Shown one piece after another: positions 16,505 to 28,320 of a stretch of 64,000 nt of DNA (the first letter of the stretch is position 1; each line of letters begins with the position of its first letter). The notes under the pieces were generated by a model, which did no database searches, was not told the origin of the DNA, and saw only the letters and a list, made by a program, of their open reading frames with translations. The stretch is from an uncultured Acidobacteriota bacterium (lineage in GTDB: Bacteria; Acidobacteriota; Terriglobia; Terriglobales; Acidobacteriaceae): assembly GCA_903832055.1 (NCBI GenBank), contig CAILAC010000017.1, positions 124,001 through 188,000 on the forward strand, in the 5' to 3' direction. The position numbers were made by a program, and so were the translations under genes.

Positions 16505-16535
16505 AAGACGATTGCAGGAAAGGTACTTCCAAGTC

Positions 16536-16760
16536 ATGCCGAAGCCAGGAATTCACCCCGCGTACGCCGCCGTTCAGGTCCACTGCTCATGCGGCAACAC
16601 GTTCGAGACGCGTTCGACCCACAAGGGAAAGATCAGCATCGAAATTTGCTCCAACTGCCACCCCTTCTTCACCGGCAAGCAGCGCCTCGTTGACACCGCA
16701 GGCCGTGTCGAGCGCTTCCGCCGCAAGTACGCTGAAAAGGCCGTTCCGGCAGCGAAATAA
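16536..16760 (+). CDS. rpmE: 50S ribosomal protein L31
   Basis: 74 aa from the ATG at 16536, giving [20 protein letters not shown]. The longer ORF-track start at 16512 adds eight residues and is not conserved in this family. CSCG and [12 protein letters not shown] supply the four cysteines of the zinc-binding (type A) L31 form, so it is the C+ version rather than the zinc-independent paralogue. It is a late-assembling protein of the large ribosomal subunit bridging to the small subunit. An AGGAAAGG stretch lies upstream. It has its own predicted promoter and terminator, so it is probably a monocistronic unit. Confidence 0.95.
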
Positions 16761-19350: not shown

Positions 19351-20490
19351 ATGCGGCCTCACTCCATCGGAATTCGTCTGCTGCTTCTAGCACTCGCCTG
19401 CGCGTCCATCGCTCGCGCCGCAACCCATCCCGACGTAGCCACCAAGCCCGCCCAAACCTGGGACAAAGCCGCAGCCGCCCGCTACCTAGACAGCCGCCAA
19501 GTCTGGTGGCAGGAGTGGCCTCACGCCCAGAAAGATCACGGCACCGTCTGCGTCTCCTGCCACACCCAGGTCCCCTACGCCCTGGCCCGGCCGCTCCTCC
19601 GCAAACCCCTCGGCGAAGCAAAGATTTCTGACCCCGAGCAGGCCATGCTTGCCAGCATTCTCACCCGCGTCAAACTCGGCAACCAGGCCGAAACCTTCTA
19701 CAGCGATGCAGTCCACGGCCCCGGCAAGACCCAGGAAGCCCGCAACGCCGAGGCCGTCAACAATGCGCTCATTCTGGCCAGCTACGACGCAGCTGCGGGC
19801 CATCTCACCGAACCCACCCGGCAGGCCCTCACCGCCATGTGGGCATTGCAGGAGCAGTCAGGCGAAAAGGCCGGCGCCTGGCTCTGGCAGAACTTCCATT
19901 TCTCCCCCTGGGAAGCCCCCGAGAGCGAATACATGGGCGCTGCCCAGGCAGCCATCGCCGTCGCCACTGCCCCTGAAAACTACGCGGCCGACCCAAAGAT
20001 TCAGCCCAACCTCACCCTGCTCCGCGCCTACCTCCGCCGCGAAGCCCCCGCCCAGCCCCTCATCAACCGCGTTTACCTGCTCTGGGCCTCGGCAAAACTC
20101 ACCAGCCTGATGACCGAGCCGGAAAAGAAAGCACTCGCCGCCGACATTTTCAAAAAGCAGCAGCCGGACGGAGGCTGGTGCCTTACCGATCTCGGCCTCA
20201 ACCAGCAGGGCGAAACCGCCTGGAAGCGCCACGACAAAACCGCCTTCGAGACCCGCAGCGACGGCTACGCCACCGGACTGGTCGTGCTCGCCCTCGAAGA
20301 AAACGGCATGGGCAAAATTGCCGAGGCGCAGCGCGGCGTCAGCTGGCTCATCGCGAATCAGAACAGGGCCGGGGGCGAATGGCCTGCGCGCTCGGTGAAC
20401 CTCCAGCGCGACCCGGCTACCGGCGTCGGTAAATTCATGAGCGACGCAGCAACGGGTTTTGCGGTTCTGGCGCTCGAGCACAGCAAATAG
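19351..20490 (+). CDS. Secreted alpha/alpha-toroid (squalene-cyclase-like) protein with CxxCH motif
   Basis: 379 aa from the ATG at 19351, which gives a clean signal peptide (LLLLALACASIARA). Shortly after is VCVSCHTQVPYALARP with C67-V-S-C70-H71, a heme-c-type motif. The rest is helical, with squalene/hopene-cyclase or prenyltransferase-like repeats: KKQQPDGGWCLTDLG, SDGYATGLVVLALEENG, QRGVSWLIANQNRAGGEWPA and a final SDAATGFAVLALE. The DxDD of true class II cyclases is not seen, so cyclase activity is doubtful. It may be a periplasmic structural or carbohydrate/lipid-binding toroid with one heme. Convergent with the NucS-like gene, separated by only one base. Confidence 0.65.
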   Translation: MRPHSIGIRLLLLALACASIARAATHPDVATKPAQTWDKAAAARYLDSRQVWWQEWPHAQKDHGTVCVSCHTQVPYALARPLLRKPLGEAKISDPEQAMLASILTRVKLGNQAETFYSDAVHGPGKTQEARNAEAVNNALILASYDAAAGHLTEPTRQALTAMWALQEQSGEKAGAWLWQNFHFSPWEAPESEYMGAAQAAIAVATAPENYAADPKIQPNLTLLRAYLRREAPAQPLINRVYLLWASAKLTSLMTEPEKKALAADIFKKQQPDGGWCLTDLGLNQQGETAWKRHDKTAFETRSDGYATGLVVLALEENGMGKIAEAQRGVSWLIANQNRAGGEWPARSVNLQRDPATGVGKFMSDAATGFAVLALEHSK

Positions 20491-23256: not shown

Positions 23257-24723
23257 ATGAGTGCTGCCCACGCCCACCCCATTCCGGCTTCCGCTTACAG
23301 TCACAAGCGGTATTTTTTTGAGAAATTTGGTATCACGGAGCGCCTGCTTGAGCGCTGCCTGGGCGAGGCCCTTGCGGCAGGCGGCGACTATGCCGACCTC
23401 TACTTTGAATCCGTGACCGCGACCGCCCTCGGCGTAGACGAGCAAATCGTCAAGTCGGCCAGTTGCGGCACCAGCGCAGGATGCGGGATTCGCGTGCTCT
23501 CGGGCGAGCGCACCGGCTACGCCTACACGGACAATCTCAGCCCGGAGCGCCTGCTGCATGCCGCCAAGACCGCCGCGCTGATCGCCTCCGGCCCGGCAAA
23601 GCACCCCATTCAGGGCTTTCAGGATGCGCCGGTCGCCGACCTCTACCCGGTTCCCCTGGGCGGGTTTGACCTCGACCTCGCCGCGCGACTCGACCTCATT
23701 CAACGCGCCGACCGTGCCGCCCGCGCCTTCAGTCCGCACGTAATTCAGGTGCGGTCGAGCTATTCAGAAGAGTTGCGCCGAATTCTCATCGCAGCCTCTG
23801 ACGGCGCCTTTGCCTCTGACACCCAGCCTCTCTGCCGCCTCAACGTCTTTGTCATTGCCAAGGACGACCAGAACACCACCCGCGGCTCCTCAGGCTGCGG
23901 CGGGCGCGGCGGGTTGGAGATCTTCGTCGGTTCCAAGAGCCCTGAAAACCTGGCCCGCGAGGCCGCCCGCGGAGCGATCCTGCAGCTTGGCGCAGTCCCC
24001 GCCCCGGCCGGCGAAATGGAAGTCGTACTCGGCCCCGGCTGGCCCGGCATCCTCCTCCACGAAGCAGTCGGCCACGGCCTCGAAGCTGATTTCAATCGCA
24101 AAAAGACCTCGGCCTTTGCCGGATTGATCGGCCAGTCTGTCGCCAGCAGCAAGGTTTCGGTCGTCGATAACGGCACCATGACCGGGCGGCGCGGCTCGCT
24201 CAACGTGGACGACGAAGGCTCCCCAACCCAGGAGACCGTCCTCATTGAGAACGGCATCCTCAAGGGCTACCTCACTGACAAGCTGTCGTCGCGGCTCACC
24301 GGCGCGGCCAATACCGGCTCGGGCCGCCGCGAAAGCTACCAGTGCATCCCCATGCCGCGCATGACCAACACCTACATGCTGGCCGGCGATGATGAGCCCG
24401 AAGACATCATCCGCAGCGTCAAGCGCGGCCTCTATGCAGTGAACTTTGGCGGCGGCCAGGTCGACATCACCAACGGCAAGTTTGTCTTCTCCGCGTCAGA
24501 AGCCTACCTCATCGAAGACGGCCACATTACCGCTCCGGTCAAAGACGCCACCCTGATCGGCAACGGCCCTGAAGCACTGAAATATGTATCCATGGTCGGC
24601 CATGACCTCAAGCTCGATGAAGGCATCGGGACTTGCGGCAAGGCTGGTCAAAGCGTGCCCGTAGGTGTAGGCATGCCCACTATCAAACTAGACAAAATGA
24701 CCGTCGGCGGCACCGGACGTTAA
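23257..24723 (+). CDS. tldD: Zinc metalloprotease subunit TldD
   Basis: 488 aa, normal length. The zinc site is GILLHEAVGHGLEADF, an HExxxH motif at H268-H273, and the third ligand is expected in the conserved C-terminal TCGKAGQ segment. Other TldD marks are VDDEGSPTQETVLIENGIL, SGRRESYQCIPMPRMTNTYM and the ending GVGMPTIKLDKMTVGGTG. With TldE it forms a hexameric chamber that degrades unfolded peptides or processes modified peptides. Its partner is 2.2 kb further on rather than adjacent. A TACACT hexamer lies 11 nt before the start. Confidence 0.95.
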   Translation: MSAAHAHPIPASAYSHKRYFFEKFGITERLLERCLGEALAAGGDYADLYFESVTATALGVDEQIVKSASCGTSAGCGIRVLSGERTGYAYTDNLSPERLLHAAKTAALIASGPAKHPIQGFQDAPVADLYPVPLGGFDLDLAARLDLIQRADRAARAFSPHVIQVRSSYSEELRRILIAASDGAFASDTQPLCRLNVFVIAKDDQNTTRGSSGCGGRGGLEIFVGSKSPENLAREAARGAILQLGAVPAPAGEMEVVLGPGWPGILLHEAVGHGLEADFNRKKTSAFAGLIGQSVASSKVSVVDNGTMTGRRGSLNVDDEGSPTQETVLIENGILKGYLTDKLSSRLTGAANTGSGRRESYQCIPMPRMTNTYMLAGDDEPEDIIRSVKRGLYAVNFGGGQVDITNGKFVFSASEAYLIEDGHITAPVKDATLIGNGPEALKYVSMVGHDLKLDEGIGTCGKAGQSVPVGVGMPTIKLDKMTVGGTGR

Positions 24724-26913: not shown

Positions 26914-28320
26914 ATGGCTGACGTTTCTGCATCACCGACTTTTGAAACCACTTCATCCCTCAACCTGCGTTCTCTGGCGGCGGAAGTCGTCGAGCGTGCT
27001 GTCAAGGCTGGAGCCACCGACGCGGAAGTCGTGGTGCGCGAGGGCGACGAGTTTTCAGTTTCAGTGCGCATGGGCCAGGTGGAAACCTTGCAGGAGTCAG
27101 GCTCGCGCGGGCTGGGACTGCGCGTGCTGGTGGGGCAGCGGTCGGCCTCTTCCTCAACCAGCGACCTGACGCCGGACGGCATAGCGCAGGTGGTTGCAAG
27201 CGCGCTGGCGTTGGCCCAGGTTACGGAAGAAGACGCGTTTGCGGGGTTGCCAGACGCTGCCGACATGGGGCAGTTGCCGGGCGATCTGCACCTTTACTTT
27301 GACGATGTCTATTCGCTTCCCCCGGCTGAGCGCATTGATCGCGCCCGCCGCGCCGAGGCTGCTGCACTGGCCGCTGACCCGCGCATCACCAATTCGCAGG
27401 GCGGGGACTTTGACGCGGCAACCGGGCGCAAGGTATTTGCCAACTCGCGGGGATTTATCGGCGAATACCAGACGAGCTACTGCGGCATTTCAGCCGCTCC
27501 GCTGGCGATGGACGCGAACGGCGCCATGCAGCGGGATTTCTGGTCATCGAGCGCGCGCCGCATTGCCGACCTCGAATCACCGGAGTCGATTGGCCAGGAG
27601 GCGGCCAGGCGCGCCCTGCGCCGCCTCGGAGCCCGCCGCGTGCCGACGCAGCAGGTGCCAATCGTCTTTGCCCCTGAGGTCGCGAGGTCGCTGCTCGGAC
27701 ACTTGTTTGAAGCGGCTTCGGGAGACTCCATCTGGCGCTCGGCGTCTTTTCTGGTGGGGGAACTGGGCAAGACTATCGCCGCCCCTGGCGTCACGCTGGT
27801 CGATGATCACACCATGATTCTGCCCAACGGCGTGGGCGGCTTTGGCACCTCAGCCTTTGATGGCGAGGGCTTGCCATGCCGCCGCACCGTGGTTGTTCAA
27901 GACGGAGTGCTTGAGACTTACCTGCTCAACACCTATGCGGCGCGCAAGCTCAACATGCGCTCGACGGGCAACGCTTCGCGCGGATTGGCGGGAGCGCCCG
28001 GCATTGGCGCTGGCAACCTGTACCTGCTACCGGGAAAGCAAACGCCCGAGGAGCTGATTGCGGCGATTCCGGCGGGATTTTATGTGACCAGCCTGATGGG
28101 TTTTGGCGCCAACATGGTCACCGGCGACTATTCGCGCGGCGCTTCTGGATTGTGGATAGAAAACGGCGAGCTTACCTTTGCGGTGGAAGAGGTGACGATC
28201 GCCGGCAACCTGCGCGACATGTTCAAAAACATCACCGCCATCGCCAATGACCTGGTCTTTCGCGGGTCAGTGACTGCGCCGACTCTGCGCGTGGACGGCA
28301 TGACGGTCGCAGGCGCGTAG
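26914..28320 (+). CDS. pmbA: TldE/PmbA family peptidase partner
   Basis: 468 aa. It starts with a LRSLAAEVVERAVKAGATDAEVVV domain and has SRGLGLRVLVGQRSASSSTSD, then a central domain that lacks the HExxxH motif, as expected for the non-catalytic TldE subunit. LPNGVGGFGTSAFDGEGLPC, STGNASRGLAGAPGIG and the ending DLVFRGSVTAPTLRVDGMTVAG are PmbA marks. It pairs with TldD as a heterodimeric protease that processes peptides and, in E. coli, microcin B17 and the CcdA antitoxin. It is separated from tldD by the small zinc-ribbon gene, the disturbed segment and DUF5995. Confidence 0.93.
   Translation: MADVSASPTFETTSSLNLRSLAAEVVERAVKAGATDAEVVVREGDEFSVSVRMGQVETLQESGSRGLGLRVLVGQRSASSSTSDLTPDGIAQVVASALALAQVTEEDAFAGLPDAADMGQLPGDLHLYFDDVYSLPPAERIDRARRAEAAALAADPRITNSQGGDFDAATGRKVFANSRGFIGEYQTSYCGISAAPLAMDANGAMQRDFWSSSARRIADLESPESIGQEAARRALRRLGARRVPTQQVPIVFAPEVARSLLGHLFEAASGDSIWRSASFLVGELGKTIAAPGVTLVDDHTMILPNGVGGFGTSAFDGEGLPCRRTVVVQDGVLETYLLNTYAARKLNMRSTGNASRGLAGAPGIGAGNLYLLPGKQTPEELIAAIPAGFYVTSLMGFGANMVTGDYSRGASGLWIENGELTFAVEEVTIAGNLRDMFKNITAIANDLVFRGSVTAPTLRVDGMTVAGA

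Follow-up and report, generated by a model that had tools for sequence, protein, structure and literature searches.

Squalene-hopene cyclases (PF13243/PF13249; 2sqc, 1gsz) are toroids composed of helical hairpin repeats with QW-type motifs, arranged in two barrel domains of about 630 residues in total. The same kind of repeats and motifs was found in the predicted product of a gene in the window, the whole 64,000-nucleotide stretch of Acidobacteriota DNA analysed here, but this protein differs from the cyclases in having one ring domain (about 340 of its 379 aa, one ring's worth), in being exported, in lacking DxDD and in carrying an invariant CxxCH. It likewise resembles class I c-type cytochromes (PF00034, PF13442) in being exported and in having a single CxxCH and a candidate Met distal ligand, yet no cytochrome c fold profile matches it, and its predicted toroid scaffold spans about 340 residues, compared with about 100 for a cytochrome domain. 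Related fusions that combine the planctomycete cytochrome C domain PSCyt1 (PF07635) with ankyrin repeats share a homologous CxxCH toroid, whereas the window protein shows neither a PSCyt1 match nor ankyrin repeats, its CxxCH being the toroid's own. Finally, the single-domain cyclase-like structures 8pak and 8paj (361-365 aa) are similar in length and, by profile, in repeats, but the match covers parts of the toroid only. We conclude that the gene product is probably an exported c-type cytochrome with one heme, for which a single squalene-cyclase-like (alpha/alpha)6 toroid serves as the scaffold; it is not a cyclase, and its likely role is electron transfer.

The gene is single-copy in its 4.57-Mb genome. 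An upstream TTG would extend the same ORF to 397 aa, and the ATG start of the 379-aa protein is common to the closest relative (L030). Judged by eye, the protein begins with a typical signal peptide, MRPHSIGIRLLLLALACASIARA/ATHPD, and inspection of the homologues revealed a signal peptide, a lipoprotein-type leader or a membrane segment at their N-termini, indicating that the CxxCH faces the compartment in which heme c is attached. The features of the gene are collected in Table 1, where A1 denotes an alignment of 25 proteins with 26-90% identity to the window protein.

Table 1. Features of the toroid protein gene, in window positions
Feature	Position	Strand	Basis
CDS, predicted heme-c toroid protein, 379 aa	19351..20490	+	ATG ORF translation; phylum profile matches
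Predicted signal peptide, aa 1-23 (A-R-A / A)	19351..19419	+	Read from sequence; homologues' leaders
Toroid domain, aa 37-378, read as six helical hairpins	19459..20484	+	Profile match to squalene-hopene cyclase
C67-V-S-C70-H71, predicted heme-c attachment motif, first hairpin	19549..19563	+	Invariant in 25/25 of A1
QQPDGGW, squalene-cyclase QW-type motif, aa 270-276	20158..20178	+	G274, G275 and W276 invariant in A1
SDGYAT, aa 303-308, counterpart, within the repeats, of the cyclase DxDD(T) segment	20257..20274	+	Alignment to SHC DVxDT, in one possible register
Second QW-type repeat, W332...Q337...W344	20344..20382	+	Invariant columns
M363 (F-M-x-D-A-A-T), candidate distal heme ligand, start of last inner helix	20437..20439	+	28/28 of own clade

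Further searching beyond A1 brought the standalone family members compared to 37 (26-90% identity), one of them on a Sphingobium plasmid and the others from Acidobacteriota, and every one of them was found to contain CxxCH exactly once. The motif cysteines are the only ones in 11 members; the extra cysteines of the others lie mostly in the signal peptide or are unconserved. A chance motif was rejected, as only about 0.001 CxxCH would be expected per protein of such composition. Loss of the motif in close homologues was looked for and none was found. The apparent loss in L094 comes from a reading-frame break, with the CxxCH sitting in the adjacent frame, and those in L104 and L013 were rejected as truncated toroid remnants; these two (L104:3806-4405 and L013) are without the heme hairpin and are likely pseudogenes. 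Translation and family profile thus bear out the sequence-only reading as to the signal peptide, the C67-x-x-C70-H71, the cyclase-like helical repeats and the absence of DxDD. That reading had, however, put the CxxCH between signal peptide and repeats, and the motif appears to lie inside the repeats, in their first helical hairpin, and not to be an add-on before them.

A CxxCH by itself is no proof of heme, since the window also encodes (16512-16760) a ribosomal protein L31-like ORF, a cytoplasmic protein, with a zinc-type CxxCH (ICSNCH). In protein prenyltransferase toroids, moreover, zinc is held by Cys and His ligands. The motif might on these grounds bind a metal such as zinc, or form a CxxC disulfide or redox pair, within a toroid of structural or substrate-binding function. 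We hold this to be unlikely, because the His is as invariant as both Cys and a disulfide would not need it, because no fourth metal ligand is invariant throughout the superfamily (in L101 and L103 another residue stands in for D304), and because heme is favoured by the export and by the PSCyt1 cytochrome to which the related toroid is fused. Three matches to the cytochrome-c assembly family PF01578 above the cut-off were found in the genome, a sign that it encodes machinery for heme c maturation.

Compared singly with Pfam, the window protein reached 22.0 bits against PF13243 (SQHop_cyclase_C), below the cut-off of 26.1. When the profile of the 25 homologues was used instead, the match to the squalene-hopene cyclase 2sqc had an E-value of 3.4e-22, which indicates that the kinship with cyclase toroids is real. 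In a self-comparison, hairpins 5 and 6 aligned as mutual repeats with 95% probability and the first hairpin resembled them weakly; because of this weak match, we infer the whole six-hairpin ring from the length of the domain, the homology with cyclases and the spacing of conserved segments, with hairpins 1-4 likewise inferred. An AlphaFold model built from only two sequences had a pLDDT of 35.9, too low to be of use.

Squalene-hopene cyclases being the best solved relatives, the protein could be conceived as a degenerate cyclase still engaged in terpene chemistry, with an incidental CxxCH. We regard this as very improbable. The motif search did not find DxDD in the window protein, so that an active cyclase was rejected, and SDGYAT takes its place at the cyclase position, in a register that is one of several possible because of the repeats. 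A single D.DD string occurs among the family members, a DHDD in L011, and it lies away from the position of the cyclase DxDD. In addition, the protein is exported and has one of the two cyclase domains, its CxxCH is invariant, and a true squalene-hopene cyclase, with DTDDT and without CxxCH, is encoded elsewhere in the genome. The family-wide conservation of CxxCH, the export, the toroid profile and the lack of DxDD make a c-type heme on an alpha/alpha toroid the likely reading.

Distant profile matches (44-54 bits) revealed larger proteins with a CxxCH of their own at the front of the toroid. The standalone and fusion families could be aligned over nearly the whole toroid (hhalign probability 99.7%, E 1.5e-26), and the CxxCH of both matched column for column, which lends weight to the heme reading. 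In the fusion family, C31, C34 and H35 were invariant in ten members, which had been picked for an in-frame CxxCH. Five of the seven fusion proteins scanned (L095, L098, L101, L102 and L105, full ORFs from several Acidobacteriota) have the PSCyt1 cytochrome first, then ankyrin repeats and then the CxxCH toroid, which gives them a predicted di-heme architecture. The other two (L096:2937-4925 and L099:3334-5172) are without PSCyt1 and have the CxxCH toroid followed by ankyrin repeats. A search of open-access papers for PSCyt1 with ankyrin returned nothing relevant.

The phylogenetic tree comprised three groups, all of them with CxxCH. The clade of the window protein (99/97) and the fusions (100/100) were well separated; the sister group was poorly resolved (60/9) because L024 is long-branched. 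In the window's clade M363 (28/28) is the one Met that never varies, and it is not found in the sister clade, whose members have I or L at this position and, in 8 of 9 cases, a His at 306. L024 has neither M363 nor H306, though it does have His at position 365. It is attractive to interpret these residues as a swap of distal ligand, M363 for H306, about one and the same heme; the difference corresponds to one deep split, and would count as weak covariation, since it is not independent. Among the ten fusion-family members used, no His or Met was invariant besides the His of CxxCH, and for this reason their heme may have an open site or other ligands.

We propose that the protein would be exported first and that the cytochrome c maturation system would then attach heme to C67 and C70, with H71 as the proximal ligand. 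The heme would be located at the hairpin-1 loop, on the ring face that in cyclases holds the catalytic acid. In a closed ring the last hairpin, which carries M363, would neighbour hairpin 1, and this Met is the likely sixth ligand in the window's clade. Terpene cyclisation would have been given up, apparently in exchange for a redox role. Passing of electrons in the periplasm is the most probable activity, and the ring cavity could serve as a docking or binding site.

In related enzymes the toroid also houses the active site, and the hairpin predicted to carry heme would, according to the profile alignment, occupy the catalytic-acid face of the cyclases; the fusion family, with no invariant distal His or Met, could have an open heme site. 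These observations fit an enzyme whose heme oxidises or binds a hydrophobic (isoprenoid, hopanoid) or glycan substrate in the ring cavity. We consider such an enzyme unlikely, given that no gene neighbourhood pointing to a substrate was found and that in the window's clade the invariant Met could occupy the sixth coordination position. A broader proposal would make all these proteins an undescribed heme-c toroid superfamily, in which the cyclase active-site face was rebuilt round a covalent heme to yield periplasmic enzymes acting on isoprenoid, hopanoid or glycan, the PSCyt1-ankyrin fusions bringing their own electron donor; this too seems doubtful to us. Periplasmic electron transfer would be the most economical function for the window protein, and an enzymatic role of the cavity is possible. 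The specific lipid-binding role raised in the sequence-only reading found nothing in its support. The same reading had presented a c-type heme on a toroid as an unusual design, and as far as the sequence goes that combination is likely, but it is not a one-off, as it recurs in a family with related fusions.

Novelty was gauged against Pfam, NCBIfam, PDB sequences and open-access papers, and no description of heme with a squalene-cyclase toroid was found in the open-access literature searched. These apparent toroid cytochromes form an unnamed family. If heme is attached, they are cytochromes c built on a type of scaffold that is otherwise associated with terpene cyclases, prenyltransferases and related toroids, and the heme-c toroid is conserved across two families of ancient split. 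This would lengthen the short list of heme c-carrying folds by one scaffold, would provide soil Acidobacteriota with a new periplasmic redox component, and would guard against misannotation of such proteins as cyclases or prenyltransferases.

Within the searched set, the family was found in Acidobacteriota and on one sphingomonad plasmid. Profile matches were obtained in 33 of 396 genomes of the phylum, a minority being weak matches to fusion proteins, and single-sequence searches gave a patchy presence (13/61 near relatives, 14/199 phylum genomes). One near-identical locus was recovered by a single-protein search of genome contigs, and no relatives were found in viral contigs. The plasmid homologue (L062:8929-10032), 44% identical and annotated as hypothetical, is carried by pBSY17_1 of Sphingobium sp. 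RAC03, where it adjoins an IS110 transposase with type II CRISPR cas9/cas2 nearby, a context that suggests horizontal transfer. The gene neighbourhoods of 25 relatives showed mainly genus-level synteny, with no recurrent functional partner and, beyond the genus, no redox gene conserved alongside. Near the toroid gene, two paralogous ORFs (window 23257-24723 and 26914-28320) resemble a TldD/PmbA-type protease pair, and this pair is syntenic within the genus.
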